A DNA stretch of 64,000 bases from Rhodothermales bacterium (GTDB lineage Bacteria; Bacteroidota; Rhodothermia; Rhodothermales; UBA10348): positions 62,001-126,000 of the forward strand of contig JAEPNP010000001.1 of NCBI GenBank assembly GCA_017643395.1, written 5' to 3'. The first letter of the stretch is position 1. Each line of letters opens with the position of its first letter. Position numbers and translations under genes: made by a program. Of this stretch, positions 45,225 to 63,632 are shown one piece after another. The notes under the pieces are model-generated. The model had not been told where the DNA came from. It searched no databases and worked only from the letters and a program-made list of their open reading frames with translations.

Positions 45225-45228
45225 CCGG

Positions 45229-46074: not shown

Positions 46075-46097
46075 TTTTGTCGCAAACCCTCGCGCGC

Positions 46098-49428: not shown

Positions 49429-50243
49429 GATGTGTAGATCACAGGATTGAGCGGCGTGTCGATTACTTCACCCACATCGGCGCCGGGGCACCAGGTATCC
49501 CAGTCATTCTGCTGATTCTCGTTTTCCGGAGCCTTCAGTTTCATCTGCTCATCCATGTAGATGATGCACATCACGCGCCGAGCCTGATCGGTGCTGTTCG
49601 GTCCCGCGCGGTGATACAACCAGCCCGCGTGGAAGCTGACCTCGCCCAGTTCGAACGGCTCCACGACGTGCTCGAAGCCAGCCTGCTCAAGCAGTGTGTC
49701 GATAGCCGCTTCGCTCTCGTCGGAGATCCCTAGACCCCGGCCGGCGCTGAGTTCGTGCGACGCGGCGCTGAATTCCAACGGTCCCATCTCGAGGGGAGTC
49801 GCCTGCAACGGGATCCACGCGGTGACGGTCTTGTCCGAGGCGAGCGGCCAGTAGTACTGGTCTGCGTGCCAGGGGGTGTAGCCGCCCGCGGGCTCTTTGT
49901 ACAGGGCCTGGTCGTGATAGAGTCGCACTCCGTCCACTTCCATGAGCTGCGCCGCAATGTGGGCCAGCCGCTTCGAGAAGACGAATTCCTTCACGACGTC
50001 GCTCTCCCGCCACAGGTTCATGACCTGCAGAAACGCCCTGGAGTAGGTGTCCCGCTCGTTCATGGGGAGATGCATCGTGTTCAGCTCGATCACTTTACGC
50101 GTGATTTCCCGGCCATAGTGGTCGAGCTCGTCAGCACTCAGGACGTCCTTCAGCTTGATGTACCGGTGCTCCCGGTAGAAAGCTACCTGATCGTGTGTCA
50201 GCGTGTAGCTGGTATCGTCTATCGTGGTCAATTCAGGGTGCAC
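49425..50243 (-). CDS. Phytanoyl-CoA dioxygenase (PhyH) family protein, 272 aa
   Basis: The start at ATG 50243 begins MHPELTTIDDTSYTLTHDQV. The Fe(II)/2-oxoglutarate oxygenase facial triad is visible: His126-x-Asp128 in PWHADQYYWP and a distal His in 'FHAGWLYHRAGPN' (about 205 or 211), with Arg222 to bind 2-oxoglutarate. Length and the 'WIPLQATPLEMGPLEF' block fit PhyH. The family hydroxylates diverse small molecules, so the substrate is unknown. It heads a three-gene set coupled by GTGA overlaps with the alcohol dehydrogenase and the esterase. A 16-bp motif shared with the GH57 promoter lies 74 nt upstream. Confidence 0.9.
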   Translation of the reverse strand: MHPELTTIDDTSYTLTHDQVAFYREHRYIKLKDVLSADELDHYGREITRKVIELNTMHLPMNERDTYSRAFLQVMNLWRESDVVKEFVFSKRLAHIAAQLMEVDGVRLYHDQALYKEPAGGYTPWHADQYYWPLASDKTVTAWIPLQATPLEMGPLEFSAASHELSAGRGLGISDESEAAIDTLLEQAGFEHVVEPFELGEVSFHAGWLYHRAGPNSTDQARRVMCIIYMDEQMKLKAPENENQQNDWDTWCPGADVGEVIDTPLNPVIYTS

Positions 50244-50317
50244 GGCGGATTGTCGGGTCTATACGATGGACAGTCTAGGGACTTCACCGTGTATCCGCGC
50301 TGCGTGCGCACGCCAAA

Positions 50318-50333
50318 ACTGATACTCACTTGA
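50318..50333. promoter_or_regulatory. Candidate operator, copy 2 (ACTGATACTCACTTGA)
   Basis: It lies 74 nt upstream of the PhyH start and just past the end of the amidohydrolase gene. It matches the element at 45209-45224 at 14 of 16 positions, with the same orientation and similar distance relative to a minus-strand gene. This suggests that the PhyH set and the GH57 set are controlled by the same protein. Confidence 0.5.
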
Positions 50334-50334
50334 T

Positions 50335-53300
50335 CTAGCGTTCAGGCTCGACGCGCCACCACCACTGGTCCGGGAGTGGCTGGTTTCGGGGCCAAATCTC
50401 GTCCATCGTCGCCGCATCATAGAGTCGCCCGTTTTTCATGACATACCGGATGTCGGCCGTGTTGTGGATGTCGTCCAGCGGGTTCGAGTCCAGGACAATG
50501 AGATCCGCCAGTTTGCCTGCCTCCAGCGATCCGAGGTCGTTGTCGAGCCCGATCGCATCCGCCGAATGAATGGTCGCTGCCCGGAGGGCATCCATGGGCT
50601 GCATGCCTCCTGACGCCATCATCCACAATTCCCAATGCGTGCCCAGGCCCTGCACCTCTCCGTGTGAACCGAGGCCTACCTTGCCTCCGGCCTCCACGAC
50701 CTTGGTCAGCTGCTCGGCGTGCAGAAAGTGCACATACTGGTCATCCCTGTACCAGGTAGCCGATTTCCACTTGTCGAGTTCGTCGTGCGGCGTGAAGCGC
50801 CGGAGCCGCTCATTCGCGTCGACATCTTCTCTGGTGATGTAGTAGTTGAACCCACTGGGCCCGCCGTAGGCCACCACAAGCGTCGGTGTGTAGAAGAGCC
50901 CACTTTCAGCCGTCAGGCGCACCACATCCTCATAGAAGGGACTGATCGGAAGCGCATGCTCCAGGCCGGCGTAGCCGTCCTGCATGAGGGTGAGGTTCAT
51001 GGTGAAGTTCGAGCCGCCTTCCGTCGTGGGAGTCAGCCCCAACTCGTTCGCCGCCATGATGACCCACTGCCTGACCTTGCGGTCGCCGGCCAGGTACTGT
51101 TTGATGGTGAGCGTATTGAAGTGGTCCGCGTAGCGCTTCAACACATTGCGGGCTTCCTCCAGGCTGGAGATCGCATCGCTCGAAAAAATGCCCGGACCCG
51201 TGGAGTAAATGCGGGGCCCCAGAATGTCCCCCGTCTCCACGAGGTCGCTGTAGGTCACCACGTCCTCCGAGCTGGTTTGTGGATCCCTTTGCGTAGTGAC
51301 GCCATAGGCGAGCTGAGCCAGGAACTGCGATACCTGTCTGCGGTGCACGCCCCAGGCCACCCACGTGTGGGCATGAATGTCCACAAGACCCGGTATGATG
51401 GTTTTTCCGGTCACCGGGATCTCCCGCGTTCCGTCCGGCACGGCGAGAGCAGGCCCGATACCGGCGATGCGGTTGTCTCGCACCCAGATGTCACCACGCT
51501 CCAGCACCTGATCGCCGTTCATGGTGATCACCCGTGCCCCGCGCAGCACCACATCGCCCGATGGACGATCCTTGGGCACGACGATTTCAATGTCGGTGCG
51601 CAGGGGGCTGTAGTCCGCCGGTGCGGTCAGCGTGGAGTCATCCTTGGCGGCCTCCTGAGCCGTCTCCACGTCCAGGCGGTCACTCAGGTCATAGCGGAAG
51701 AAGCTGCGCCCGATCGCATAGTGCACCGCGGACCCATCGTTCGCCCAGCCGACGAAGTCGCCGCCGATGTCGGTGATGCGCCAGGATGGAAAAGCACTCG
51801 AGGAGCGCACCGACACCGTGGGCACGTTGCCGCCGATCGGGGGCACCGTGATCGCGTACACGTTGCGAGCCACACGCACCAGGGCGCGCTTGCCGTCGGG
51901 AGACAGGACGACCTCATCCGGCGAAACCGGGCTACCGCCGGAACGACCGTTCGGTGTGCCGGAGACCTTGACGACGGTGCGCAATTCGGTGCCGTCGAAA
52001 CGCATCGAAAGCAGGCCGTCCGAGCCGTCCCAGATGTAGAGCCGCTCGGGGTCCGGTCCGATGTGCGGGGCGTTGCGGCCTTCCTGGGTGGAGGCACCGC
52101 CGACCCATTTGATGCGATTCACTTCTCCCCCTTCTGCCGGAATCCAGACGTACTCGGATTCGGAGCTCGCATGATGGCTTCCGAAATCTTCCAGCATCCT
52201 GGTACGGTGCATGCGCGAACCCCGCATTCCCATGATGCGGGTGCCGTCGCGTGAGTAGGCGATCTTGTCGTAGAAGGCGGCCGGTGTCAGCGTTTCCGGC
52301 TGCGCAGTGCCGTCAGCACGCACCCGCCTGATGTGGCCCCCGCGCGCATCGTCCCACGTGACGTAGGCAATCCAGCGACCGTCCGGACTCCAGACCGGAC
52401 CGTGTTCTACCAGTTCGTGGTCCGTGAGCCGGCGTGCGTCCCGTACCACAGCCATGGAATCCTGCGACAGCGGTGCCACCCACAGGCGGTCCAGTGCGGA
52501 GAACACCAATCGGCTGCCGTCCGGACTCGGCCGCGCGCCACGGATCTGGCTGACGGTCAGCGTGCTGTCGTTGACCGGATAGTCGTACAGGGCGAGCGGC
52601 CCCATCTCCAGTTCGACTTCGGCAGAAAACGGGATCTCGGTCAGAGCCCCGCCGGGAACGGATACGCGCCAGATCTTGCCCCCGAAACTGGTGATCAGCG
52701 CCGAGCCGTCCGGCAGAAACGCGGACCCCGGGTAGACGTCGCGATCGCGCGCTCCACCGCCCTGCGAGTCGTCGCGCTGCACATCCATGACCAACCACGA
52801 CTCATTCCCGTTTTCGAGGTCAAGCAGCTTCAGCGCACTCCGCGCGTCATGGCGCGTGGCATAAACCACGTAACGGCCATCCGGGCTGGGCACGGGTCGA
52901 AAGGCCCCTTCATGTTCGTGCGAGCGCACCCGAATCTCGCCATTGGAGCGGTCCAGCTCCGCAATCTGGTAGGTGCCGACCCTACGACTGGAGCTCTGAG
53001 GCGGCACCGGGTGGGCATGCGCGTCCCGAAAGGCCGCACCGGCGGAGCCTGCATCATCCGGCACGTCGATGCCGCGTGGCAGCGTGCCGCGGATGTTCAC
53101 CCAGACCACATCAGCGTCCGGCCCGAAGGCCGCCCCAATCAGGAAGCTGTCGGAAAGCTCGGCACCAGACCCCCCATCCCGGTGGTAGAGCCTCAGCCTG
53201 GTGCCGTCGTTGGCCACGATATACGTGCCGTCAGGCGTCCACTCGGGCGACATGAACGACTTCTTCTCTGCAGTGGTGCGCGCTCTGGGTTCACTGCCGT

Positions 53301-53685
53301 CTGCGTTCGCGACCCAGATGTTCTCAGACCCATTCCGATCGCTGATGAAGACAATGTGCTGACCGTCGGGCGAATACCTGGGCTGCATGTCGTACGCCAT
53401 GCCGCTCGTGATGCGCGTGGCCTCGCCGCCGGTGACCGGCATGGTGTACAGGTCGCCCAGCAACTCAAACAGGATGGTTTCCCCGTCCGGCGAGACGTCC
53501 AGCGAGATCCAGGAGCCCTCGGTTGCCGTATAGGCCATCGTGCGCGTCGGGATCAGGGGGAGTGCCTTCTCCTGCTTGGCGAGGGCGGCTGAGGAGTCGT
53601 TTTCCGCAACGGTTTGCGCTACGACAGGTCCGCAGGCCAGGGCAAGGAACAGGGCGGAGGCGATCTGCTTCACGGGTACTCGCAT
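50335..53685 (-). CDS. TolB-like propeller/amidohydrolase fusion, exported, 1116 aa
   Basis: The start at ATG 53685 gives a signal peptide (MRVPVKQIASALFLALACG...VVAQ). The N-terminal 650 or so residues are PD40/TolB-like propeller repeats (WISLDVSPDGETILFELLGD, PRYSPDGQHIVFISDRNG, SPEWTPDGTYIVAND). The C-terminal 420 are an imidazolonepropionase/aryldialkylphosphatase-like amidohydrolase: 'VDIHAHTWVAWG' with the HxH metal pair at about 769-772, later a His in 'GSHGEVQG' and 'TIHSADAIG', and the last part 'LADLIVLDSNPLDDI'. This fusion is a known architecture in this phylum. It is predicted to be a periplasmic metal-dependent hydrolase, with a peptide-like or amide substrate being most common for relatives. 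Confidence 0.9.
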   Translation of the reverse strand: MRVPVKQIASALFLALACGPVVAQTVAENDSSAALAKQEKALPLIPTRTMAYTATEGSWISLDVSPDGETILFELLGDLYTMPVTGGEATRITSGMAYDMQPRYSPDGQHIVFISDRNGSENIWVANADGSEPRARTTAEKKSFMSPEWTPDGTYIVANDGTRLRLYHRDGGSGAELSDSFLIGAAFGPDADVVWVNIRGTLPRGIDVPDDAGSAGAAFRDAHAHPVPPQSSSRRVGTYQIAELDRSNGEIRVRSHEHEGAFRPVPSPDGRYVVYATRHDARSALKLLDLENGNESWLVMDVQRDDSQGGGARDRDVYPGSAFLPDGSALITSFGGKIWRVSVPGGALTEIPFSAEVELEMGPLALYDYPVNDSTLTVSQIRGARPSPDGSRLVFSALDRLWVAPLSQDSMAVVRDARRLTDHELVEHGPVWSPDGRWIAYVTWDDARGGHIRRVRADGTAQPETLTPAAFYDKIAYSRDGTRIMGMRGSRMHRTRMLEDFGSHHASSESEYVWIPAEGGEVNRIKWVGGASTQEGRNAPHIGPDPERLYIWDGSDGLLSMRFDGTELRTVVKVSGTPNGRSGGSPVSPDEVVLSPDGKRALVRVARNVYAITVPPIGGNVPTVSVRSSSAFPSWRITDIGGDFVGWANDGSAVHYAIGRSFFRYDLSDRLDVETAQEAAKDDSTLTAPADYSPLRTDIEIVVPKDRPSGDVVLRGARVITMNGDQVLERGDIWVRDNRIAGIGPALAVPDGTREIPVTGKTIIPGLVDIHAHTWVAWGVHRRQVSQFLAQLAYGVTTQRDPQTSSEDVVTYSDLVETGDILGPRIYSTGPGIFSSDAISSLEEARNVLKRYADHFNTLTIKQYLAGDRKVRQWVIMAANELGLTPTTEGGSNFTMNLTLMQDGYAGLEHALPISPFYEDVVRLTAESGLFYTPTLVVAYGGPSGFNYYITREDVDANERLRRFTPHDELDKWKSATWYRDDQYVHFLHAEQLTKVVEAGGKVGLGSHGEVQGLGTHWELWMMASGGMQPMDALRAATIHSADAIGLDNDLGSLEAGKLADLIVLDSNPLDDIHNTADIRYVMKNGRLYDAATMDEIWPRNQPLPDQWWWRVEPER

Positions 53686-53810
53686 TGGTGGGAAGGCAGA
53701 ATACACGATTCCCGCTTTGAATTAACTTCGGCGCCCGACCCTGCCGGTCACCGGTCGGTGCGCTTCCGGGCCTCCCCCACCTACTCCCTCCCGTTCTGAC
53801 GACCTCTCTT

Positions 53811-54794
53811 GTGGATACCGTGCGCGACCGGCTCGCCGACAAGCGGGTACAGGCCGTGCTCAAATGGGGTGGGCGCGCGGTTACGGTCGCAATCCTCGCC
53901 TACCTGATCTATCGGCTCGGGCAGCTGGGCTGGCGAGACCTATGGTCGGCCCTGCCGAGGAATCCGCTGTTCTACCTGCTGTTTGTGGCCATTTACATGG
54001 CACAACCCCTGGCGGAGCTCTGGATCTACAGACAGATCTGGCCCCTGCCAGCCATGGCCGGCATGCGCGCGCTCATCAAGAAGCGTGTGTTCAACGAAGA
54101 GATGGCCGGCTACTCAGGCGAGGTGTATTTCTTCTGGTGGCTCCGGGACAGCCTGTCCACGTCGTGGTCTGAAGCGTTCCGGGCCGTTCGTGACATCAAC
54201 ATCCTGTCGTCGGTGGCGGCGCTCACCACGGCCTTCGGATTGCTTGGTGTGCTGACGGCTACGGGCGTGCTGGAACTGGAGCGTCTGTTCACCAACGTGG
54301 GGCGCGCGCAGGTCATCGTGGCCGGCGTGGTGCTGGTCGTCGTCGTGGCCATTCTGGCACGGTTCCGGAAGTACATCTTTGCCCTCCCCGGCGGCCTGTC
54401 GTCCCGGATTCTTGGCATTCACTACCTGCGGTTGCTGGTTGTGAACACACTGGTGCTCCTGCAGTGGATGGTCGGTGTGCCGGAGATCGGAGTGATGACG
54501 TGGCTCACCTACCTGTGCCTGCTCATCATCCTGAATCGCATCCCCTTCCTGCCCAGCAAGGATCTGTTCTTCCTGACCCTGGGGATCGAGCTGTCATCGA
54601 CGCTGGGACACGCTACAACGGCCATCGCCGGCATGCTGCTGGCCGCGAGCATGCTGGTTCGCATCACCAATGTGGTGCTGTTTATCGTCTCGCACTACGG
54701 AGATCAGCGGTGGAAAGCCGAAGCGGCTGCCCGGGAGTCGGCTGACGAGGCAGAGCAGGATGCCGCTCCAGAAGTCCCGGCCAAAACCGCATGA
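53811..54794 (+). CDS. Polytopic membrane protein of unknown family, 327 aa
   Basis: The frame begins with GTG at 53811. At least six hydrophobic segments are seen (about 22-40, 55-72, 130-152, 165-183, 205-222, 230-247, 268-290), so it is an inner-membrane protein. The C-terminus is acidic and alanine-rich (ESADEAEQDAAPEVPAKTA). It shows no CDP-alcohol phosphotransferase or flippase signature that I recognise; a resemblance to UPF0104-type membrane proteins is possible but weak. The stop overlaps the start of the CDP-glycerol-glycerophosphotransferase-like gene (ATGA, 54791-54794), so the two proteins are probably partners in making or moving an envelope polymer. Confidence 0.65.
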   Translation: MDTVRDRLADKRVQAVLKWGGRAVTVAILAYLIYRLGQLGWRDLWSALPRNPLFYLLFVAIYMAQPLAELWIYRQIWPLPAMAGMRALIKKRVFNEEMAGYSGEVYFFWWLRDSLSTSWSEAFRAVRDINILSSVAALTTAFGLLGVLTATGVLELERLFTNVGRAQVIVAGVVLVVVVAILARFRKYIFALPGGLSSRILGIHYLRLLVVNTLVLLQWMVGVPEIGVMTWLTYLCLLIILNRIPFLPSKDLFFLTLGIELSSTLGHATTAIAGMLLAASMLVRITNVVLFIVSHYGDQRWKAEAAARESADEAEQDAAPEVPAKTA

Positions 54795-55951
54795 ACGTTC
54801 TCGTCTGGGCCACCACGTTCGGGGCGGATCTGTGGAGCATGACCCGATATCTGGACGGGCTGCCGGACGTCAAGCGCTTGCGAGTCGTGATGGACGACCC
54901 GGCGCTGTATCTGGCCCAGGGTGTAGCCGATCTATTCCCGCTGAAGGCTGAAATCGTCGCCCGCAAGTGGCATCATGGGCGTCCCTCCCGCCACTGGGAC
55001 GTGACGCTGATGGACAACGGCGTTCCGCCATTTCGAACGTCTCGCAAGGCACTGATCCTGTGGCACGGGTTCGGATGGAAGGGTCCGAACGATGTGCGGG
55101 AGCTCTGGCTGCTGCACGCTCGACTGACCTGGACCTGGGGGAGCATTCGACGCGCCAACAGGCACCTCAAATGGCAGGCGTTCGGTCCCTGGGACCGCAA
55201 ACATCGCACGGAAATCAGTGGTGTGCACCCGGACAACTGTCTGACCCTCGGTGCGGCGAGCCACGATGATCTGCGCACTCCGATGGACCGCGTGCTGGCG
55301 CAGCCCTACTACCCCTTTGACATTGTCAACCGCAAGACGGTGCTGATTGCACCGACCTGGCACTATGGCGAAGTGTTTGCCCATTGGGGCCGGGACGCCG
55401 AGCTGTTTGACCGCTTGCTGGGGCAGATCCACGACCATGGCGCGAACGCCATCGTCCGCCTGCATGACTCGTTCCGGTTTGACCAGGCCTACCTGGACTT
55501 TCTGGACGGGTTGACGCGGCGGTATCCGAACGTCTGCCTCAAGTTCAAGAACCAGGCACCCGACAACTACCTGGACCTTCAGGTGAGCGATGCGCTGATC
55601 ACGAACTACAGCAGCATCGCCAACCTGTACTACGCGACCGGCCGCCCAACCCTGCACGTCTATCCGGTGCGCAGCGCGGACGAGGCCTTCATCTGGAGGC
55701 AGCTCACAGTCGCAGGCGTTCGCAAACGACGCGTTGAAAAAGCTTCGTACATCTGGAAGCTGCCTCCGGAAGAACACGGCGGTCTGCTGGCGCGGGACTT
55801 TGACCAGTTGCAGGCGCAGCTGGAGCTCGCCTTCGCCGATCCGGACTGCTGCCGCGAGGTGAGCAAGGAGTTCCTGAACAGGCACATGCTGGGCGCCGAT
55901 GGCGAGAATCGGGACCGGATTTGGGCTGCGATGCGGGATCTTGCGGGGTGA
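54791..55951 (+). CDS. CDP-glycerol glycerophosphotransferase (TagB/TagF)-like protein, 386 aa
   Basis: The start ATG overlaps the upstream membrane protein stop (ATGA). The family signs are the 'LILWHGFGWKG' block (about 88-98), 'PTWHYGE' (about 190-196), 'NAIVRLHDSF' (about 219-228) and the donor-site block 'VSDALITNYSSIANLYYATG' (about 266-285), where Asp and Ser in 'D.LITNYSS' are conserved. Teichoic-acid glycerol/ribitol-phosphate polymerases share these. There is no signal, which fits a cytoplasmic-face enzyme. It should transfer an alditol phosphate from a CDP donor. The window has no CDP-glycerol enzyme, but downstream genes can make CDP-inositol. Confidence 0.82.
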   Translation: MNVLVWATTFGADLWSMTRYLDGLPDVKRLRVVMDDPALYLAQGVADLFPLKAEIVARKWHHGRPSRHWDVTLMDNGVPPFRTSRKALILWHGFGWKGPNDVRELWLLHARLTWTWGSIRRANRHLKWQAFGPWDRKHRTEISGVHPDNCLTLGAASHDDLRTPMDRVLAQPYYPFDIVNRKTVLIAPTWHYGEVFAHWGRDAELFDRLLGQIHDHGANAIVRLHDSFRFDQAYLDFLDGLTRRYPNVCLKFKNQAPDNYLDLQVSDALITNYSSIANLYYATGRPTLHVYPVRSADEAFIWRQLTVAGVRKRRVEKASYIWKLPPEEHGGLLARDFDQLQAQLELAFADPDCCREVSKEFLNRHMLGADGENRDRIWAAMRDLAG

Positions 55952-56001
55952 AAGGCTCACACAGTCCTCAAATCCCTCATTCTGAGGTTTTCCCTCGTAA
56001 G

Positions 56002-56017
56002 GTTACCTTAGGGTAAC
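56002..56017. promoter_or_regulatory. Palindrome GTTACC-TTAG-GGTAAC before the inositol genes
   Basis: A perfect 6-bp inverted repeat with a 4-nt spacer lies 3 nt before a GTG and 33 nt before an ATG of the inositol phosphate synthase gene. It could be an operator or an mRNA hairpin over the start. The preceding 55952-56001 has only a weak stem (CTCA-TTC-TGAG followed by GTTTT). Confidence 0.4.
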
Positions 56018-56050
56018 ATTGTGTTGACGCAAACGCGGGCCACCCACTCG

Positions 56051-57379
56051 ATGACTCCCCTCCCTCTTGCGAGCCCCCATTCCGGCAAACTGCTGGTCCT
56101 GACGCCTGGCCTTGGCGCCGTTTCGACCACGTTCATGGCCGGGGTCGAGGCCATCCGACAGGGCATAGCGCAGCCCGTGGGATCGCTCTCCCAGATGCAG
56201 ACCATCCGCATCGGGGCCCGCTCGGAAGGCCGAAACCCGCTGATTCGGGACCTCGTGGACCTGGCCCCGCTGGAGGACCTGGAATTTGGTGCCTGGGACG
56301 TTTTCAGCGACACGGCACTGGAGGCGGCGAAACGGGCAGACGTGCTTCGTCCGGACCACCTGGATCCGGTAGGTGACTTCCTGAGCGGCATCAAGCCCAT
56401 GGCCGCGGCCTTCGACCGCAAGTACGTCAAGCGCCTGGACGGCCCGAACGTGAAGCAGGGGGCCAACAAGTATGAGCTGGCCGAACAGCTGCGGCAGGAC
56501 ATCCGGGATCGCCTGAATGAGACCGGAGCCGAGCGCGCCGTCATGGTCTGGTGCGGTTCCACCGAAGTCTATCTGCGGCCGGCTGCGTGTCATCAGACCC
56601 CGGAGTCGTTTGTGCAGGGTCTGAAAGACAACGACCCGGCCATCGCTCCCTCGCAGCTCTATGCCTACGCCGCCATCATGGAGGGCGTGCCCTACGCGAA
56701 CGGAGCGCCGAATCTCTCAGCGGACGTGCCAGCGCTCGAGATGCTGGCGGAAAAACACGGGGTGCCCATCGCCGGCAAGGACTTCAAGACCGGGCAGACC
56801 CTGATGAAAACCATCCTGGCCCCGGGCATGAAGGCCCGCATGCTCGGCATAAACGGATGGTTCTCCACCAACATTCTCGGCAACCGCGATGGGGAGGTGC
56901 TGGATGACGAATCCAGCTTCAAGGCCAAGGAGGTGACCAAGTCGGCCGTGCTCGACACGCTGCTGCAGGCGGAGACCTACCCGAATCTGTACGGCGACCT
57001 GTACCACAAGGTCAGGATCAACTACTACCCGCCTCGCGGGGACGAAAAGGAGGGCTGGGACAACATCGACATCTTCGGGTGGATGGGGTACCGCATGCAG
57101 ATCAAGGTGGATTTCCTCTGCCGCGACTCCATCCTGGCCGCACCCATTGTGCTTGACCTGGCGCTGTTCCTTGACCTGGCCGCCCGCTCGGGCCGCTCGG
57201 GCATCCAGGAGTGGTTGTCATTCTACTTCAAGAGCCCCCATGTCGGGGAGGGTCACGTGCCGGAGCACGACCTGTTCATCCAGCACTTCAGGCTCAAAAA
57301 CACCTTGCGGGTCATGGCGGGCCACGAGCCGCTTACGCACCTGTCGGAGAACTTCGACCTGCACGCGGACCTGCACTGA
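56051..57379 (+). CDS. ino1: myo-inositol-1-phosphate synthase, 442 aa
   Basis: The start is set at ATG 56051 (MTPLPLASPHSGKLLVLTPG); a GTG at 56021 would add ten residues. The Rossmann start 'LLVLTPGLGAVSTTFMAG', the 'WCGSTEVYLRP' block (about 170-180), 'DFKTGQTLMKTILAP' (about 248-262) with Lys250, 'GMKARMLGINGWFSTNILGN' and 'VRINYYPPRGDEKEGWDNID' are all signature blocks of inositol-3-phosphate synthase (INO1), including the Lys residues for catalysis. It converts glucose-6-phosphate to myo-inositol-phosphate with NAD. Its stop overlaps the ATG of the cytidylyltransferase gene by 1 nt (TGATG), so the two are coupled. Confidence 0.92.
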   Translation: MTPLPLASPHSGKLLVLTPGLGAVSTTFMAGVEAIRQGIAQPVGSLSQMQTIRIGARSEGRNPLIRDLVDLAPLEDLEFGAWDVFSDTALEAAKRADVLRPDHLDPVGDFLSGIKPMAAAFDRKYVKRLDGPNVKQGANKYELAEQLRQDIRDRLNETGAERAVMVWCGSTEVYLRPAACHQTPESFVQGLKDNDPAIAPSQLYAYAAIMEGVPYANGAPNLSADVPALEMLAEKHGVPIAGKDFKTGQTLMKTILAPGMKARMLGINGWFSTNILGNRDGEVLDDESSFKAKEVTKSAVLDTLLQAETYPNLYGDLYHKVRINYYPPRGDEKEGWDNIDIFGWMGYRMQIKVDFLCRDSILAAPIVLDLALFLDLAARSGRSGIQEWLSFYFKSPHVGEGHVPEHDLFIQHFRLKNTLRVMAGHEPLTHLSENFDLHADLH

Positions 57380-58119
57380 TGGCCACAACAGAACGTACCG
57401 GCCTCATTCTGGCCGCCGGCTTTGGCTCCAGACTGGCTGAGAACGGACACGCCGAGGTGCCGAAGCCCCTGATTCAACTCGGCGGTACTTCGCTGATTGT
57501 GCGCGCGCTGCAGGGACTGGAGGCCGCCGGATGCACACGCAGCGTCATTGTCCTGGGTCATCGGCACAGCCTGATACGGCGGGCGGTCGAGGACGAATAT
57601 GCCGGGTCGATGCCCATTCAGTTCGTATTCAACGAACGGTACGATCTGTCGAACGGAGTGTCTGTGCTCAGCGCGGCGCCGCACCTTGGGAACGAGTTCG
57701 TGCTCGTGATGGCAGACCACGTGGTGTCGGAAGATGTGATGCTCGCTGCGGGCGCCCACGTTCCGCCGGAAGACGGTGCCACCCTCCTGGTCGACTACCG
57801 GATTGACCAGGTGTTTGACCTCGACGACGCCACCAAAGTCGTTGAGCGAGACGGGCGCATCGCGGCCATCGGCAAGCACCTGACGGAGTACAATTGCATT
57901 GACATCGGCGTGTTTGTGTGCACGCGCGCGCTGCTGGATGCCATCCAGGTGGTCTACGACAGAGAGGGCGACGCGTCACTCTCTCACGGGGTGCAGGCCC
58001 TTTCCGGCAGAGGGACCATGCACGTGCTGGATATCGGCGACGGATTCTGGCAGGACGTCGACACGCCGGACATGCTCGATCACGTGCAACAGCGACTCGG
58101 ATTGCGCGCTGCGGGCTGA
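57379..58119 (+). CDS. CTP:inositol-1-phosphate cytidylyltransferase-like nucleotidyltransferase, 246 aa
   Basis: The ATG at 57379 lies in the TGATG junction with ino1. 'LILAAGFGSRLAENGHAEVP' followed by KPL (9-31) is the nucleotidyltransferase signature; then come 'VMADHVVSEDV' (Asp binding the metal), 'VDYRIDQVFDLDDATKV' and 'GDGFWQDVDTPDML' at the end, which fit IPCT/sugar-phosphate cytidylyltransferases. Next to ino1, the likely product is CDP-inositol. In archaea and Thermotoga this activity feeds di-myo-inositol phosphate or phosphatidylinositol synthesis and is usually fused to a CDP-alcohol transferase. That partner domain is absent here. The CTP and inositol specificity is inference from the neighbour. 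Confidence 0.8.
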   Translation: MATTERTGLILAAGFGSRLAENGHAEVPKPLIQLGGTSLIVRALQGLEAAGCTRSVIVLGHRHSLIRRAVEDEYAGSMPIQFVFNERYDLSNGVSVLSAAPHLGNEFVLVMADHVVSEDVMLAAGAHVPPEDGATLLVDYRIDQVFDLDDATKVVERDGRIAAIGKHLTEYNCIDIGVFVCTRALLDAIQVVYDREGDASLSHGVQALSGRGTMHVLDIGDGFWQDVDTPDMLDHVQQRLGLRAAG

Positions 58120-58127
58120 GTAGGGCA

Positions 58128-58961
58128 ATGTCTGGTCTCCTCCGTCGTTCGAACGGTGGAACCGCCTCAACCCCTGCCCGTGAACGCCATGTGCGCCCTC
58201 TCCTGACCATAGCCGCCCTGCTGCTGGCAGCGGCACCGGTGGCAGCGCAATCCATTGGACCCGCTTCTCCGACGGCCTCCGTGCCTGCCGGGGCCAGCAC
58301 GCCGTGTGTGCCCTTCTCAGGGTGCCTGGTGGTCGCCGACTTCGAACAGTTCGAGGCGGGCGGCCTGCCCATCGGCTGGCTGACCTATGAAAACAAGCGC
58401 GATGTGCGCCCGGTCACCGGAGAGCTGCAGACCGATGAGGAGCGCTTTGTCGTGGCCTCGGAGCGGGGTAACCGGTTCATCCGCGCCCTGGTCTATGGAA
58501 AGGCCCATCGCATCATTCTGCCGAACGATGGGGAGAAGCTGGACTGGGACGTCGACTCCCATCCGTTGTTGAGCTGGGACTGGCGTGCGCTGAAATTGCC
58601 CGTGGGAGCGCGCGAAAACATGTCCAGGCTGAACGACACCGGCGCGGCGATCTACGTGGTGTTCGACGAGGACTGGCTTGGCCGACCCCGCACCATCAAA
58701 TACTCCTACAGCTCGTCGCTGCCCAAGGGCCAGACGGCGTCCTACGGCGCGTTGCGTGTGCTGGTGGTCAGTTCGCAGGTCGAAGAAGGCATAGAGCGCT
58801 GGATCCCGGTCCGGCGTGACGTGCAGCAGGACTATCGCGACCTCTTCGGCAAGGAGCCGCCGTCGCGCCCCTCGGCCATTTTCCTCTGGAGCGACTCGGA
58901 CTCGGTTGACTCGGAGGCGGAAGTCGACTTCGACAACCTCCGCATCCACGCGAGCGGGTAG
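58128..58961 (+). CDS. DUF3047 family exported protein, 277 aa
   Basis: ATG 58128 gives a long n-region; a GTG at 58191 (MRPLLTIAALLLAAAPVAAQ) gives a tidier signal peptide, so the mature start may be 21 codons later. The mature part carries DUF3047 blocks: 'HPLLSWDWRALKLPVGA' (about 145-161), 'NDTGAAIYVVFDED' (about 168-181), 'RTIKYSYSSSLPKG' (about 187-200), 'DYRDLFGKEPPSRPSAIFLW' (about 240-259) and 'SDSDSVDSEAEVDFDNL'. It should be a periplasmic beta-sandwich of unknown function. It follows the cytidylyltransferase by 8 bp, so it belongs to the ino1 operon. Confidence 0.82.
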   Translation: MSGLLRRSNGGTASTPARERHVRPLLTIAALLLAAAPVAAQSIGPASPTASVPAGASTPCVPFSGCLVVADFEQFEAGGLPIGWLTYENKRDVRPVTGELQTDEERFVVASERGNRFIRALVYGKAHRIILPNDGEKLDWDVDSHPLLSWDWRALKLPVGARENMSRLNDTGAAIYVVFDEDWLGRPRTIKYSYSSSLPKGQTASYGALRVLVVSSQVEEGIERWIPVRRDVQQDYRDLFGKEPPSRPSAIFLWSDSDSVDSEAEVDFDNLRIHASG

Positions 58962-58964
58962 CCT

Positions 58965-59786
58965 CTATCCGCTGATGCAGGCGCAGTCCATCGTGGTCTG
59001 ACAGTCCACCTCCACCGCGCCCTCGGAAATGTCCTGGATCCTCTGGTTGATCGCTCCCTCCAGGTCAGTGTCGATCCCGCTGGTCGCGCGTATGCGATTC
59101 AACTCGGCGGAGACGGCATCGCCCGGCAGCCCGTAGCACTGGGCGCTGATCATATCTCCGGTCAGCACCTGACGCATCTGGTCCAGGTGCGGGGTGAATC
59201 GGCCTTGCCAATCCCGACCTGTCAGCTCGCTCCACAGCGCCTCATGAGCGCCCGAACCGAGCATGCTATACCCGCCATAGTCCCACGTGCGGGTAAAAAA
59301 CGCGGGCCATCCGGTGATCTGCCCCTGATATACCTGCGGATGGCCCCAGTGGTCGAACAAGAGGGCCACGAAGGCGTCGTCGAGTGAGTCGGGCGTGGCC
59401 TGGGCGATGCGGTCCCAGTCATCCCGCTCCATGCTCAGCGTGGCTTCCGTGCACTCGGCCACACAACTCGGACTCAGCCCCGGAAGTCCGAGATCGTTGC
59501 CCTGAAACCGGTAGCTGTATCCGGTGAAGGGATCCAGGGAATCGGCAGGAATCAAGTCCCCGGTCATCCGCAGAGCCCGTTCGAACAGGGCGTCGAAGTC
59601 GTCCGAGGTGCGAACGGCGGCTACCTGCTCCCGGAAGCCGTCGATCACGGCCACCGATTCCGCCGGCAACAGCGCCAGCCGGGCTGCTTCCTGCTCCGCG
59701 GTCACCGGATCGGGCTCGAACGATGGGGCCTTCTGCTCGGGGGCCGAACAGCCTGCCAGCACAAGGAACAGGATTAGCGCGCGCAT
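58965..59786 (-). CDS. Hypothetical lipoprotein, 273 aa
   Basis: The signal is MRALILFLVLAGCSAPEQ with lipobox LAGC (Cys13). The mature protein is acidic and has several Cys: C107 and C111 in SPSCVAEC, C217 in SAQCYGL, and a Cys-rich end CQTTMDCACISG. No family is recognised. It is last in the run LacI - MFS - DoxX - this gene, separated from DoxX by 12 nt, so it is probably co-transcribed. It ends 3 bp from the convergent DUF3047 gene. Confidence 0.65.
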   Translation of the reverse strand: MRALILFLVLAGCSAPEQKAPSFEPDPVTAEQEAARLALLPAESVAVIDGFREQVAAVRTSDDFDALFERALRMTGDLIPADSLDPFTGYSYRFQGNDLGLPGLSPSCVAECTEATLSMERDDWDRIAQATPDSLDDAFVALLFDHWGHPQVYQGQITGWPAFFTRTWDYGGYSMLGSGAHEALWSELTGRDWQGRFTPHLDQMRQVLTGDMISAQCYGLPGDAVSAELNRIRATSGIDTDLEGAINQRIQDISEGAVEVDCQTTMDCACISG

Positions 59787-59798
59787 CCTGAAAGGTAG

Positions 59799-60218
59799 CT
59801 ACTCGCCGCCAGCGCCGCGCCGGGCCTGCAACCACGCGTCCACGCTGTAGCGTCCGGGGCCGATGCCCATGAGCCCCACCAACACGAACATGTTCTTGAG
59901 GGCGTGGGCGGGCGTGCCCTGACCAGTAATCCAGTGGCGTGCAGAGGCAACCAGCATCGTGAACGCCAAAAGCGCCGCAACCGGCCGGAAGAACAGTCCC
60001 GCTGCGATCATGAGCGCACCGATCGACTCCGCGAACGCCGCAAGAAACCCGAACGCGGTATGCCCGAAGCCAATGCCGAACATCTCCATGGCACCTCCGA
60101 TGCCCTCCCAGCGCTCCGGTCCGCCGGTCAGCTTGGACCAGCCGTGGTAGTAGATAAACGCCAGCCCAAAGCCCAGACGGAGAATCAGGAGGCCGAGGTC
60201 GTGATAGCGGTCTTTCAT
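59799..60218 (-). CDS. DoxX family membrane protein, 139 aa
   Basis: The start ATG overlaps the MFS gene stop (ATGA, 60215-60218). Four membrane helices (about 7-25, 53-72, 76-92, 107-123) and the motif 'LILRLGFGLAFIYYHGWSKL' (10-29) followed by 'FAESIGALMIAAGLFFRPVA' (62-81) are typical of DoxX/DUF417-like proteins. The cellular role is unsettled; some relatives are linked to oxidative stress. It travels here with a LacI-controlled sugar transporter. Confidence 0.85.
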   Translation of the reverse strand: MKDRYHDLGLLILRLGFGLAFIYYHGWSKLTGGPERWEGIGGAMEMFGIGFGHTAFGFLAAFAESIGALMIAAGLFFRPVAALLAFTMLVASARHWITGQGTPAHALKNMFVLVGLMGIGPGRYSVDAWLQARRGAGGE

Positions 60219-61522
60219 GGTCGAGCCAGAGAGTGAGCGAGTTCTTCGAGCGGGCGCCCGGCGGTTTCAGGCATCATGTAGCGCACCCAGAGTAGTTGCA
60301 ACACCATCATGCCGGCAAACAGGGCAAACACGACGGCGGCCCCGATGGTGCCGAACAGAACCGGCACCAGTGACGGGATAATGGCGGCAAGCACCCAGTG
60401 CACGGAGCACCCGAAGGCCTGTCCGGATGCGCGCAGGTGATTGGGGAAGATCTCCGAGATGAACACCCAGATGACCGCGCCCTGTCCCACCGCGTGGGAG
60501 CCGATGAAAATGAACAGGAAGGCCGCCACCGCGAGTCCGCTCCAACCAAGGAAGAACGAAGCGGACACCAGAGCCAGCGAGATGATGTAGCCGATCGAAC
60601 CCCAGTACATCAGTTGCTTGCGGCCCTTGCGGTCAATCAGGTAGATGCCGAGCAGGGTAAAGACAAGATTCGTGATACCGATGCCAACGCTGCTCAACAG
60701 CGCCGTGCTGGCACCCAATCCGGCTTCCGCAAAGACGCGCGGGGCGTAGTACAGAATGGCGTTGATTCCTGAGGTCTGGTTGAAGAAGGCGATCAGAAAC
60801 GCCAGGGCCAATGGCAGTCGGTACTTCTTCTGGAAGATCGACTCCGAAGGACCCGACTCGGCGGCCATGTCGGCCAGGAGCTGCTGCGCGCTCTCTTCGG
60901 CGCCGACGAGCCGCAGGACTTCATCGGCCTCCTCGACACGTCCCTTGGTGAGCAGCCAGCGGGGACTGAGGGGCAGTCCCAGGGCCAGCAGGGTGTAGAT
61001 GACGGCCGGGATGGCCTCCACGCCCATCATCCAGCGCCAGGCATCGTCTCCGAGACCCGAGAGTAGAAAGTTGGAGACGAACGCCACCAGAATGCCGAAA
61101 ACGATGTTGAACTGGTACAGGCCTACCAGTCGTCCCCGGTCTTTGGCAGGTGCGATTTCGGAGATGTAGGATGGCGCGGCGACGGTCGATGCACCGACGC
61201 CCAGGCCGCCGAGGAATCGGAAGACCGCGAACGTGATCGGGTCGCCGGCGAACGCGGATCCGATGGCGGAGATGGTGTACAGCACACCGATCCCGATGAG
61301 GGTGCGCTTGCGGCCCAGGATGCGCGTGGGGATACCGCCGAGAATCGCGCCGGCCACCGTGCCCCAGAGGGCCATGCCGACGACAACGGCGCCGTGGAAC
61401 GCGTCCGAGGACTGCCAGAGCTCCTGCAGCCGGCCTTCGGCGCCGGAGATCACAATCGTGTCGAAGCCGAACAGGAATCCGGCCAGCGCGGCGGTCAGGG
61501 ACCAGGTGGTAACGCGTTTCAT
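60215..61522 (-). CDS. Sugar porter (MFS, XylE/GLUT type), 435 aa
   Basis: The start at ATG 61522 (MKRVTTWSLTAALAGFLFGF) overlaps the LacI stop (ATGA). Twelve transmembrane helices are visible. Sugar-porter signatures are present: 'GFLFGFDTIVISGA' (helix 1), 'GRKRTLIGIGVL' after helix 2, 'RFLGGLGVGASTVAAPSYIS' (helix 4), 'NQTSGINAILYYAP' (helix 7), 'DRKGRKQLMYWG' (between 8 and 9) and the end motif 'PETAGRPLEEL'. It imports a monosaccharide, most likely by proton symport. LacI control and the neighbouring fucosidase-like gene suggest fucose or a related sugar, which is inference. Confidence 0.93.
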   Translation of the reverse strand: MKRVTTWSLTAALAGFLFGFDTIVISGAEGRLQELWQSSDAFHGAVVVGMALWGTVAGAILGGIPTRILGRKRTLIGIGVLYTISAIGSAFAGDPITFAVFRFLGGLGVGASTVAAPSYISEIAPAKDRGRLVGLYQFNIVFGILVAFVSNFLLSGLGDDAWRWMMGVEAIPAVIYTLLALGLPLSPRWLLTKGRVEEADEVLRLVGAEESAQQLLADMAAESGPSESIFQKKYRLPLALAFLIAFFNQTSGINAILYYAPRVFAEAGLGASTALLSSVGIGITNLVFTLLGIYLIDRKGRKQLMYWGSIGYIISLALVSASFFLGWSGLAVAAFLFIFIGSHAVGQGAVIWVFISEIFPNHLRASGQAFGCSVHWVLAAIIPSLVPVLFGTIGAAVVFALFAGMMVLQLLWVRYMMPETAGRPLEELAHSLARP

Positions 61523-62526
61523 CGTCCGGTGCCGCACGAGCGGCGGACAATCAGTTCAGAAGGCAGCACAAACTCGCGTGGCTCGAGCTTTGGATCTGCA
61601 ATGCGGGCCAGCAGAGCCTCCGCTGCCTGCTTCCCCATTTCCTGAGCAGGCTGCCTCACTACCGTCAGCGGAGGGTCGATTACCCGGGACCAGGGGACTT
61701 CATCGAAGGCAACGACAGCCATGTCGTCCGGCACGCGCAGACCCAGCGCCCGAATGGACAGCATTACGCCCAGGCTGAGCATACTGGTACCGATGAAGAC
61801 GGCAGTCGGTGGGCGCTCAAGGTTGACCAGGTCGTGGAGCAGCACGCTTCCGTCCTCCTGAGTCGATTCCGCCTCCAGCACCAGTTCCGGATCCATGGGA
61901 ATGCCTGCCTGACTCAGGGCCAGCCGATACCCCGTGCGTCTTTCCACGGAGGTGGACAAATGCGGGAGACCTCCGATGTAGCCGATGCGGGTATGCCCCC
62001 CCTCGATCAACAGTTGCACGGCTTCCCTTGCGCCGCGCACGTTGTCGGTCAGGACCGCATCCAGGTACCGGCCCGTCAATCGGCGGTCAATACAGACGAT
62101 GGGCACGCGACTCTTTTGCAGGCGGTCGAGCGCCGGATCCCCCTCTACCACGGACGGCAGGATGACACCGTCGACCTGCTCCGTGTGCATGGTTTCCAGG
62201 CACACCCGCTGGCGATCCGGGTCCTCATTGGAATTGTTGAGGATGAGAGCAAAACCGTTCGCGTAGGCGACGTCTTCCACGCCGCGCACCACATCGGCAA
62301 AGAACGGATTCTGGATGTCCGGGATAACGATGCCGAGAATCTTGGACTGGCCGGATTCCACCCGCAAGCGGCGCGCCACTCGGCTTGGCCGATAGTCCAA
62401 CTCGTCTACGGCTGCCTGTATGCGGGCCCTGGTGCGCTCCCGAACCACCGAAGGGTCGTTAAAGAACCGGGACACGGTGGCCACGGACACGCCCGCGCGT
62501 CTGGCAACCTCAGTCAGAGTCGGCAT
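61519..62526 (-). CDS. LacI family transcriptional regulator, 335 aa
   Basis: The N-terminal helix-turn-helix is TLTEVARRAGVSVATVSRFF (3-22), followed by the hinge 'DYRPSRVARRLRV' (about 44-56). The periplasmic-binding-protein-like ligand domain (about 62-330) has 'ILGIVIPDIQNPFFADVVRG', 'HTRIGYIGGL', 'FDEVPWSRVIDPPLTVVRQP' and 'SCGTGR' at the end. It should repress or activate the operon it starts (LacI - MFS - DoxX - lipoprotein) when its sugar is absent. A palindromic LacI-type operator lies 9 nt upstream of its start, so it probably controls itself. Confidence 0.94.
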   Translation of the reverse strand: MPTLTEVARRAGVSVATVSRFFNDPSVVRERTRARIQAAVDELDYRPSRVARRLRVESGQSKILGIVIPDIQNPFFADVVRGVEDVAYANGFALILNNSNEDPDRQRVCLETMHTEQVDGVILPSVVEGDPALDRLQKSRVPIVCIDRRLTGRYLDAVLTDNVRGAREAVQLLIEGGHTRIGYIGGLPHLSTSVERRTGYRLALSQAGIPMDPELVLEAESTQEDGSVLLHDLVNLERPPTAVFIGTSMLSLGVMLSIRALGLRVPDDMAVVAFDEVPWSRVIDPPLTVVRQPAQEMGKQAAEALLARIADPKLEPREFVLPSELIVRRSCGTGR

Positions 62527-62535
62527 CGAAGAGAA

Positions 62536-62549
62536 TGAAAACGTTTACA
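62536..62549. promoter_or_regulatory. LacI/GalR-type operator TGAAAACGTTTACA
   Basis: The core AAACGTTT (62539-62546) is a perfect palindrome with a central CG, the hallmark of LacI-family operators. The full 14-mer matches its own reverse complement at 12 of 14 positions. It ends 10-23 bp upstream of the LacI ATG at 62526, so binding would block transcription. Confidence 0.75.
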
Positions 62550-62620
62550 AACTAAAATGAATGCCAATACCGGATCCATGCGAACCCTTCGACCTAACTT
62601 CATTAAGGAGCGCGGGCGAC

Positions 62621-63610
62621 TTAGCGACCGGCTACTTCCCTGGCGCGCATAAGGCGCTCTATGGACGCAGCCGGCAGCAGGCCGGAAGTATCCGGAGGTA
62701 CGTTCAGCAAGTAGTTAGCCGAGCGGGCGTTTGCCGTGGTCAGCATTTCTGCGATGTACTCCGCCGACTTGAGCGCCCAGGGCGTGTGTCCTTCGTTCCA
62801 AAACCAGCTGGGCCCGATGGTATCAGACACTTCGGCCGGCTCCGTGTTGCCGGTCGAGGGCAATCCTGCCGCCGGATCCGTGGCAGCATACAAGGGCAGT
62901 TCGTAGCTGTGAACGTCAGATTCCGAACTGGTGCGTTGCTCGTTCGCAAGGATGAGCGTGCTCGGAGAGGTCTTTCGGATGTGTCGGCGGAGCTTGTGCC
63001 ACGCGGCCTGGTCCATGTAGGGACTGCGCGCCTGATCGATCCATACAAGGTCTATCGGACCGTACCGGGTTAGCAACTCCGTCAACTGCTTGCGAGCGAA
63101 GCCTGCATAGTCCCCGTTGGCTTCCGGTGGAAATCCATGCAGGGAGGGCCCGGGCGGGACCGGGTTGCCAAAGCGCCCGTCGTAGTCTCCGGCCATGCAG
63201 TAGTACAGACCGACACGCAGTCCGCGGCTGCGAAACGCGTGAACGAATTCCGCGACCACATCGCCCGAGCCTTGTTGGAATTCGAGCATCGCCGACGCGT
63301 CGTGGTCGGTGTGCTCACTGTCCCAGAGCGCCCACCCGCCGGTGTGCTTGGTGGTCAGCACGCCATATTTCATGCCGGCAGCCACGGCTACGTCCGCCCA
63401 TTGCCCCGGATCGAACCGGTCAGGACTGAATGCCCTCGGGTCTTCGTATCCGTTCGTCCAGTCGCCACCTGTGAAGGTCGCCATGCCGAAATGGATGAAC
63501 ATGCCGTACCGCCAGGTCAGGAAATCCGCCCGCAAGTCTTCGGACGGGATCACCACGCTCTGGCACGAAAGCGTGCCGCACACCATAACCACCAATACTC
63601 CGCAGCGCAT
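62621..63610 (-). CDS. GH29 alpha-L-fucosidase-like lipoprotein, 329 aa
   Basis: The signal is MRCGVLVVMVCGTLSC, with a possible lipidated Cys16. The catalytic barrel shows GH29 blocks: 'WRYGMFIHFGMATF' (33-46), 'YGVLTTKHTGGWALWDSEHT' (82-101), 'GLYYCMAGDYDG' (134-145), and 'IDLVWIDQARSP' with Asp192 at the nucleophile position. The 'NYLLNVPPDTSGLLP' close fits the barrel end. The usual C-terminal beta-sandwich of GH29 is missing or very short, so the protein is shorter than most. It should release alpha-L-fucose from the outside of the cell. It is upstream of lacI on the same strand, 94 bp apart. Confidence 0.85.
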   Translation of the reverse strand: MRCGVLVVMVCGTLSCQSVVIPSEDLRADFLTWRYGMFIHFGMATFTGGDWTNGYEDPRAFSPDRFDPGQWADVAVAAGMKYGVLTTKHTGGWALWDSEHTDHDASAMLEFQQGSGDVVAEFVHAFRSRGLRVGLYYCMAGDYDGRFGNPVPPGPSLHGFPPEANGDYAGFARKQLTELLTRYGPIDLVWIDQARSPYMDQAAWHKLRRHIRKTSPSTLILANEQRTSSESDVHSYELPLYAATDPAAGLPSTGNTEPAEVSDTIGPSWFWNEGHTPWALKSAEYIAEMLTTANARSANYLLNVPPDTSGLLPAASIERLMRAREVAGR

Positions 63611-63632
63611 GCGCCGAGAATACGGACGGGAT

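Follow-up and report, generated by a model that had tools for sequence, protein, structure and literature searches.

A TagF-like transferase as the likely user of CDP-inositol in a Rhodothermales gene cluster

The five genes at positions 53811-58961 of the window (the whole stretch of 64,000 nucleotides analysed from a Rhodothermales bacterium) raise the question of which enzyme uses the CDP-inositol that they would provide. To our knowledge, all enzymes that transfer inositol phosphate from a CDP-linked precursor to a lipid are members of the CDP-alcohol phosphotransferase family, and no CDP-alcohol transferase lies within the five-gene cluster. Direct reading of the sequence found all five genes in place on the + strand. 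A membrane protein gene (53811..54794) is followed by that of a 386 aa TagF/TarL-fold transferase (54791..55951), and the overlap of the two (ATGA, 54791-54794) supports their coupling as proposed in an earlier sequence-only reading. The ino1 gene (56051..57379) probably starts at ATG 56051, its reading frame being open from GTG 56021, and precedes the gene of IPCT (CTP:inositol-1-phosphate cytidylyltransferase, 246 aa; 57379..58119), for which the start was revised to ATG 57379. These two overlap by TGATG at 57377-57381 with one base common to both genes; this overlap bears out the second coupling that had been proposed. The last gene (58191..58961), with its start revised to GTG 58191 or alternatively ATG 58128, belongs to the set as described and encodes a putative accessory DUF3047 protein (PF11249, 81 bits, 1e-22 in the Pfam scan), of which the N terminus is hydrophobic and, judged by eye, signal-peptide-like.

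Sequence comparison shows clear homology of both IPCT and ino1 to enzymes making CDP-inositol. The ino1 product, a predicted myo-inositol-1-phosphate synthase, exceeds the cut-offs of both Pfam domains of this enzyme (PF07994, 295 bits against 25, 8e-88; PF01658, 111 bits against 27, 3e-32) and shows 73-82% identity in 15 of the 18 relative loci compared. IPCT matches PF12804 with 52 bits in the same scan, and its best solved relatives in phmmer are 2xme (8e-23), 4mnd (4e-22) and 4jd0 (1e-17), which we take to be the inositol-1-phosphate cytidylyltransferases of A. fulgidus and T. maritima. The aligned part extends from residue 6/8 to residue 232/234 of 246 and covers the catalytic domain; a CDP-alcohol transferase domain is absent from the protein, and the match to NF041135 (124 bits, below the cut-off of 580) falls on the cytidylyltransferase half of that model. 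Ino1 would form inositol-1-phosphate and IPCT would convert it to CDP-inositol; we infer the activity of IPCT on CTP and inositol-1-phosphate from this homology and from its coupling to ino1.

At E up to 0.001, nothing else in the genome matches PF04464, and the transferase itself scores below the family cut-off of 22.1 (21.4 bits; 20.7 in the genome-wide search). Structure models were compared using Foldseek and VIA-align against the PDB. The transferase model (pLDDT 91.6) gave Z scores of 22.9-26.1 to TagF, TarL and capsule polymerases, with the next family at 20.6, and aligned to 3l7l over 331 residues with a Z of 26.0 and rmsd of 3.5; as modelled, the protein has the GT-B fold of TagF/TarL. 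His92 (H92) and H225 are invariant in all 32 aligned homologues, and an ungapped offset from the fold-comparison ranges places H92 at TagF 444. The catalytic histidines of TagF are given as H444 and H584 in the available part of PMC5974469. The fold is common to TagF/TarL, the Gram-negative TagF-like capsule polymerases and the present enzyme, in which H92/H225 may lie roughly where the counterparts of H444/H584 of TagF would be expected. Unlike these polymerases, it is a lone 386-residue domain under the Pfam cut-off and is linked to IPCT and ino1. It is proposed to be a CDP-inositol-dependent inositolphosphotransferase.

The distribution of these genes was surveyed in 244 genomes of the class, own genome included, with p-values that disregard kinship and with the genes of the relatives' loci called by codon-trained gene calling. 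The TagF-like gene is present in 34 genomes and a close IPCT in 53 (57 matches minus 4 weaker ones). Both occur together in 32, i.e. in 32/34 carriers of the TagF-like gene, and the two carriers devoid of an IPCT match are 74% and 88% complete. The pair shares a contig in 28 of the 32 genomes, always on the same strand with IPCT downstream, and the gap among these 28 is below 2 kb in 15 and below 6 kb in 26. Outside the class, IPCT was found in 13 of 15 genomes with a TagF-like homologue (two had no IPCT match), and the two genes are on the same contig in six of the 15, with a different gene order in two. Among named strains, Fodinibius halophilus, Gracilimonas mengyeensis and Rhodohalobacter sulfatireducens carry both on one contig.

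The TagF-like gene is missing in 21 of the 53 IPCT carriers of the class. A CDP-alcohol transferase of the Rhodothermus type, which is located directly upstream of ino1-IPCT in all three loci of genus g12, is found (close or middle homologues) in 20 of these 21 genomes versus 1 of the 32 that have the TagF-like gene; across the 53 IPCT carriers, the two transferase types are almost mutually exclusive. The homologues were graded by identity alone after the data had been seen (16 at 49-100%, 7 at 27-32% and 8 at 24-29%), and the exclusion is given both ways: when all weaker homologues of the Rhodothermus enzyme are counted (E at most 1e-15), 7/32 carriers of TagF-like gene and IPCT have one, so the exclusion is not absolute. 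Both full transferase types are present in G046; in G014, which gave no IPCT match, the TagF-like gene occurs together with a middle Rhodothermus-type homologue. The best IPCT tree, built from 46 of the 53 class genomes and 13 from outside the class, shows six switches of transferase type, with weak deep branches and some long branches that meet; G002 (partial gene) and G188, G207, G208, G209, G210 and G212 (without a whole-gene locus) were left out. Co-occurrence, linkage, near-exclusion of the alternative transferase and the TagF/TarL fold sustain the earlier proposal that CDP-inositol is consumed by the TagF-like enzyme, a donor assignment that is probable and well supported by genomics.

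The sequence-only reading had also stated that no CDP-alcohol transferase is present, which holds for the cluster, but three such enzymes (192, 199 and 282 aa) are encoded elsewhere in the genome. One is over the NCBIfam cut-off for PgsA and one over that for PssA, while the remaining one stays under the NCBIfam cut-offs with its top scores to ClsA and PgsA. Their neighbours, named by reading the open reading frames, are pyrE-, psd- and ftsY-like. At least three CDP-alcohol matches occur in at least 53 of 60 relatives (own genome included), with or without IPCT, among the matches listed, and the three enzymes therefore look like an ordinary set. No transferase of Rhodothermus, DIPP or Bacteroides PIP type was found in the genome. 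Searches for the Rhodothermus-type enzyme came up empty there at both E 0.001 and 1e-15, neither a fused nor a separate DIPP synthase was seen, the best NCBIfam models of the three enzymes being PgsA, ClsA/PgsA and PssA, and the models for BT1523-type or mycobacterial-type PIP synthase (NF052561 and NF045883) reached at most 36 bits in the genome against cut-offs of 350 and 170. Synthesis of di-inositol phosphate or of Bacteroides-type PI was rejected, as no fitting CDP-alcohol enzyme was found.

In Rhodothermus marinus, a CDP-inositol pathway leading to dialkylether glycerophosphoinositol was reportedly described by Jorge, Borges and Santos in 2015. The earlier remark that no described bacterial system with this set was known has to be narrowed: CDP-inositol lipid synthesis is known from that organism, so only the transferase, the TagF-like partner, is new. 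Common to both is that IPCT makes (here, would make) the CDP-inositol which supplies the head group, and compared with the loci taken as Rhodothermus (L046-L048, genus inferred) ino1 is 74% and IPCT 53-54% identical. There, a CDP-alcohol phosphotransferase, presumably the enzyme of the 2015 study, precedes ino1-IPCT, whereas here a TagF-fold enzyme is found and the CDP-alcohol enzyme is absent. The alternative inositol lipid cluster of Bacteroides/Prevotella (Heaver et al. 2022, PMC9246714), as far as the available part of that paper describes it, resembles the present locus in MIPS and a nucleotidyltransferase predicted for CDP-inositol and in a nearby gene annotated as lysylphosphatidylglycerol synthase, but differs in a predicted CDP-alcohol phosphatidyltransferase and HAD hydrolase, no TagF-like enzyme being mentioned in that part. 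The Caulobacter CpgD/CpgA system for ceramide diphosphoglycerate likewise has an IPCT-like cytidylyltransferase and a CDP-activated polar group proposed for a lipid, but is set apart by its description, with phosphoglycerate as the substrate and CpgA as the next enzyme (passages of PMC12275187 and PMC13228409). In the open-licence PMC literature, CDP-inositol with glycerophosphotransferase gave nothing and CDP-inositol with teichoic gave the CpgD paper only; among the matches listed, no title named a TagF-like CDP-inositol user and nothing usable concerned Balneolaceae polar lipids.

The membrane protein gave no match in the Pfam scan, PF03706 included, and a sequence link to PF03706 was rejected (hhalign against a pair of PF03706-type proteins, probability 0.3%), hence its likeness to MprF comes from fold comparison. 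In VIA-align, its model (pLDDT 76, built from five sequences) matched six MprF chains with Z scores of 17.6-19.9 and 280-290 residues aligned, the next fold being at 5.1; the best Foldseek match was 7duw (E 0.027). The C-terminal synthase domain is absent, as the modelled helices of the 327 residues reach up to 318 with nothing beyond, and the protein is a putative lipid flippase with the fold of the MprF flippase domain. The family is found in 169/244 class genomes, which makes its co-occurrence with IPCT uninformative. The six top-scoring class members all come from IPCT carriers, but five of them had gone into the profile and the other belongs to the same genus. The five genes do not form a fixed set in the class: the membrane-protein family is widespread, and 21/53 IPCT carriers are without the TagF-like gene. 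The reading as an envelope operon of five fixed genes was rejected since DUF3047 and membrane protein vary between genomes. DUF3047 genes were labelled in 11 of 54 loci, every one in a genome with the TagF-like gene.

In the sister genome, TolC-like, MlaC, MprF-like, TagF-like, ino1, IPCT and DUF3047 genes stand in a row on one strand. MlaC-, TolC- and MMPL-type genes adjoin the locus in relatives, and no cluster of them is seen among the genes called at 44001-64000 of the window. Assignment of the MMPL and MlaC neighbours as HpnN and HpnM was discarded; these were the top-scoring models, yet below cut-offs.

These observations lead to a reading to which we give a probability of about 0.6. Following the formation of CDP-inositol, the TagF-fold transferase would transfer inositol-1-phosphate from it to a hydroxyl of a membrane-embedded acceptor with release of CMP, and would be a non-homologous substitute for the CDP-alcohol phosphotransferase by which Rhodothermus uses CDP-inositol. 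The MprF-like protein may act as the flippase that moves the product through the inner membrane, from where, in relatives, the MlaC-, TolC- and MMPL-type proteins may bring it to the outer membrane. A lipid or short glycolipid is a likelier acceptor than a long capsule, and neighbours of the MprF-like, MlaC, TolC and MMPL types speak for a lipid or glycolipid rather than a polymer, the lipid type being held at somewhat better than even odds. The TagF-type gene, in the position of the lipid enzyme of related bacteria, suggests a second route for inositol phosphate onto envelope lipids or lipid-linked sugars. More tentatively, at slightly under even odds, the TagF-fold enzyme may be a second, evolutionarily independent inositol-phospholipid synthase of Rhodothermia, Myxococcota and other phyla, feeding an outer-membrane phosphoinositol (glyco)lipid flipped by the MprF-like protein. 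If true, inositol lipids would be reached by a new enzymatic route via a TagF-type enzyme, CDP-inositol would join the donors of the TagF-fold enzymes, and cultured Balneolaceae and Myxococcota would be expected to have an inositol-phosphate component in the envelope that has so far gone unrecognised. The proposal is directly testable, with few genes, a confident transferase model and named strains carrying the gene and IPCT.

The strongest competitor, though unlikely, keeps CDP-inositol as the donor and takes a lipid-linked oligosaccharide as the acceptor, placing inositol phosphate in or on a surface polysaccharide. Those TagF-fold enzymes that have been characterised work on membrane acceptors of teichoic acid and on capsules (parts of PMC12275187 and PMC5974469), and genes of polysaccharide synthesis or export (Wzx, Wzi-like, glycosyltransferases, sulfotransferases) are common around the locus in relatives, where a Stealth protein also lies. 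These neighbours also fit a glycan acceptor. A group-1 glycosyltransferase neighbouring the locus in relatives occurs, at E up to 1e-40, in 16/244 genomes, of which 15 carry the TagF-like gene, but it is absent at this threshold from the three genomes of the window's genus. As a PimA-like hint this glycosyltransferase was rejected: its best solved relatives are PimA chains, matched with 6e-8 only within residues 192-368, and its NCBIfam scores were far under cut-offs, so no substrate is claimed for it. Against the oligosaccharide, the near-exclusion with the Rhodothermus lipid enzyme, the MprF-like fold and the relatives' MlaC/TolC/MMPL genes indicate a lipid.

It is improbable that the TagF-like enzyme takes another donor, e.g. 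CDP-glycerol, with CDP-inositol consumed by one of the three CDP-alcohol enzymes. Known family members use CDP-glycerol or CDP-ribitol (structure titles; PMC5974469, in part), TagF-like domains can also transfer hexose phosphate (same part of PMC5974469), and one CDP-alcohol enzyme of the genome scores under all cut-offs; but the tight linkage and frequent company of IPCT within and outside the class, the ordinary look of the three enzymes and the absence of any CDP-glycerol cytidylyltransferase seen within the cluster speak for CDP-inositol. Far less credible still is that CDP-inositol serves the soluble solute di-inositol phosphate with the TagF-like gene a mere neighbour. IPCT is known from that pathway (portions of PMC12275187 and PMC9246714), but it depends on a CDP-alcohol-family DIPP synthase, and none was found beyond the PgsA-, ClsA/PgsA- and PssA-like enzymes. 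Fused IPCT-transferase proteins do occur in two relative loci (L050 and L051), which differ in this from the present locus.

The five genes of the sequence-only reading are confirmed; all lie on the forward strand of the window, and both gene pairs overlap. The membrane-protein gene (53811-54794, no Pfam match) and the gene of a 386-residue TagF-like transferase (54791-55951) share an ATGA overlap, and ino1 (probably 56051-57379) shares a TGATG overlap with the gene of the CTP:inositol-1-phosphate cytidylyltransferase (IPCT, 57379-58119), so that translational coupling is probable within each pair. A DUF3047 gene follows, probably at 58191-58961. Pfam supports Ino1, the DUF3047 protein and the nucleotidyltransferase domain of IPCT; the TagF-like protein scores 21.4 bits with PF04464 against a cut-off of 22.1. 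The solved IPCTs 2xme, 4mnd and 4jd0 align to nearly the entire length of the window IPCT, which is devoid of the CDP-alcohol transferase domain found in bifunctional enzymes.

The model of the TagF-like protein, built from a 32-sequence alignment, had a mean pLDDT of 91.6. Among solved structures it comes closest to TagF, TarL and Gram-negative capsule polymerases (Z 22.9-26.1), ahead of UDP-GlcNAc 2-epimerases (Z 20.6) and other GT-B proteins. None of the 32 aligned sequences varies at His92 (in LWHGFGWKGP) or His225 (in RLHDSF). The catalytic histidines of TagF are H444 and H584 according to PMC5974469; judged from the aligned range alone (1-386 on 353-719), His92 would correspond to about TagF position 444 and His225 would lie near 584. 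On account of these fold matches and invariant histidines, the protein looks like an active but divergent TagF-fold phosphotransferase falling below Pfam acceptance.

CDP-inositol-driven lipid synthesis is already known; Rhodothermus marinus reportedly (Jorge et al. 2015, cited in PMC9246714) makes CDP-inositol and has its head group moved onto dialkylglycerol. In three relatives of one genus (loci L046-L048), which look like Rhodothermus, a 311-residue CDP-alcohol phosphotransferase is encoded directly before ino1-IPCT; PF01066 was shown for the protein of L046, and L047 and L048 have its relatives. In the window, by contrast, the TagF-like gene occupies that place, as it does in the sister genome and in three genomes of one family (f9). 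The new element is a TagF-fold transferase standing where the CDP-alcohol enzyme is found elsewhere, and it is kept across several families and phyla; no description of it was found in searches of open-licence PMC papers, for some of these searches among the matches listed.

The class-wide distribution of the two transferases is consistent with such a replacement. Among 244 class genomes, own genome included, the TagF-like protein was found in 34, IPCT in 57 (E up to 1e-20) and the Rhodothermus-type enzyme in 31 (E up to 1e-15; 16 close matches at 49-100% identity, seven middle at 27-32% and eight weak at 24-29%). Four IPCT matches of only 34-35% identity (G003, G144, G147 and G148) were set aside, leaving 53 IPCT genomes. 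IPCT is present in 32/34 TagF-like carriers, the exceptions being G014 (74% complete, with a middle homologue) and G183 (88% complete), and in 16/16 carriers of the close Rhodothermus type. Close or middle Rhodothermus-type enzymes occur in 1/32 IPCT genomes with the TagF-like gene versus 20/21 without it (Fisher p 2e-12, ignoring kinship). The weak homologues found in six TagF-like carriers could represent a second CDP-inositol user and so argue against assigning this role to the TagF-like protein; when they are added, the proportions become 7/32 versus 20/21 (p 9e-8, again ignoring kinship). Twelve of the 26 IPCT genera have the TagF-like gene and no close or middle type (three of these with some weak homologues), twelve show the reverse, one has both and one neither. 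In G046, which has both, the TagF-like gene adjoins ino1-IPCT and the Rhodothermus type sits on another contig, and the IPCT genome with neither, G182, is 80% complete and has a genus-mate (G183) carrying the TagF-like gene. In 28/32 genomes the TagF-like and IPCT genes share a contig, and in each of these IPCT is the downstream gene and has the same orientation; the other four genomes have them on different contigs.

The sequence-only reading had seen no CDP-alcohol transferase beside the pathway. The own genome (4.5 Mb, 98% complete) holds three elsewhere; no match to the Rhodothermus type was found in it. One is above the PgsA cut-off and another above the PssA cut-off, whereas the third has ClsA and PgsA as best models, yet stays under their cut-offs. 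They are adjoined by what we take to be pyrE-, psd- and ftsY-like genes. Of 60 genomes, own included, at least 53 have three or more CDP-alcohol transferases among the matches listed, whether or not they carry IPCT. The window's TagF-like gene is the sole PF04464 match of its genome at E up to 0.001.

A scan of genome contigs for the TagF-like profile yielded 37 loci. The record titles place 15 of these in other phyla, namely in Deltaproteobacteria/Myxococcota families and, with one record each, in Alphaproteobacteria, Acidobacteriota and Spirochaetes. All 15 are MAG contigs and may therefore be mis-binned. IPCT lies within the same locus in 24/37 cases and 6/15 outside ones, with a different gene order in two of the latter (L248 and L251). 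When the genomes of these 15 loci and of four further ones lacking a linked IPCT were searched, 16/19 were found to encode IPCT, among them 13/15 outside ones; these figures describe TagF-like carriers only. The two outside genomes with no IPCT match speak against the link. In a tree of 59 IPCT proteins, which covers 46 of the 53 class genomes and 13 outside ones, the two transferase types require six changes, and well-supported branches alone force at least three changes of the TagF-like label; support is weak for the deep branches, and there are places where long branches meet. This topology suggests that the transferase was exchanged repeatedly beside a conserved donor pathway.

Both donor and acceptor of the TagF-like transferase are predictions from sequence and modelling. 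A phosphoinositol lipid or glycolipid is favoured as product (probability about 0.6), since the MprF-like protein and the TolC-like, MlaC-like and MMPL neighbours in relatives are lipid-handling types. The membrane-protein model (pLDDT 76, five sequences) matches the MprF flippase domain in six chains at Z 17.6-19.9, the next fold being at 5.1; Foldseek alone was weak (E 0.027). In L201, L202 and L209, which have the close CDP-alcohol type, a gene assigned to one cluster directly precedes the CDP-alcohol transferase, and PF03706, the lysylphosphatidylglycerol synthase membrane region, was shown for the one in L202. The gene order in the sister genome is TolC-like, MlaC-like, MprF-like, TagF-like, ino1, IPCT and DUF3047, and several Balneola-type relatives continue with an MMPL transporter (most similar to HpnN in L186). 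Among genes called at 44001-64000 of the window, the MlaC, TolC-like and MMPL clusters were absent, which counts against this reading. A gene annotated as lysylphosphatidylglycerol synthase is placed near inositol lipid clusters in PMC9246714. Decoration of a polymer with inositol phosphate is considered less likely, but Wzx flippases, glycosyltransferases, Wzi-like proteins, sulfotransferases and a Stealth protein also occur near the gene in relatives; one glycosyltransferase is found in 16/244 genomes, 15 of them TagF-like carriers, but not in the window's genus. The proposed CDP-inositol envelope pathway is partly supported, the TagF-fold enzyme being the likely user of CDP-inositol. The membrane-protein family is present in 169/244 class genomes, too many for it to mark the pathway.

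DUF3047 genes were labelled near TagF-like or IPCT genes in 11/54 loci, all of TagF-like carriers; in L200 one directly follows the TagF-like gene on a contig without ino1 or IPCT. In 12/54 loci, mostly of Balneola-type relatives, the gene of a 350-residue protein with no Pfam or NCBIfam match (as at L186:12971-14020, reverse strand) lies downstream of IPCT and in the opposite orientation. G003 (L051:5857-8278) and G008 (L050:7959-9476) encode proteins of 443 and 505 residues whose IPCT-like N-terminal part is 34-36% identical to the window IPCT, and their open frames also contain a weak match to CDP-alcohol transferases; these are probably of the bifunctional IPCT/DIPP-synthase type. In the window, the reverse strand at 50335-53706 encodes a 1123-residue protein in which an amidohydrolase domain comes after WD40-like (PD40) repeats. 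The reverse-strand genes at 60215-63610 apparently form a sugar-use cluster unrelated to the TagF-like/IPCT finding; we take them to encode a sugar-transporter-like protein, a LacI-type regulator and a fucosidase-like protein.
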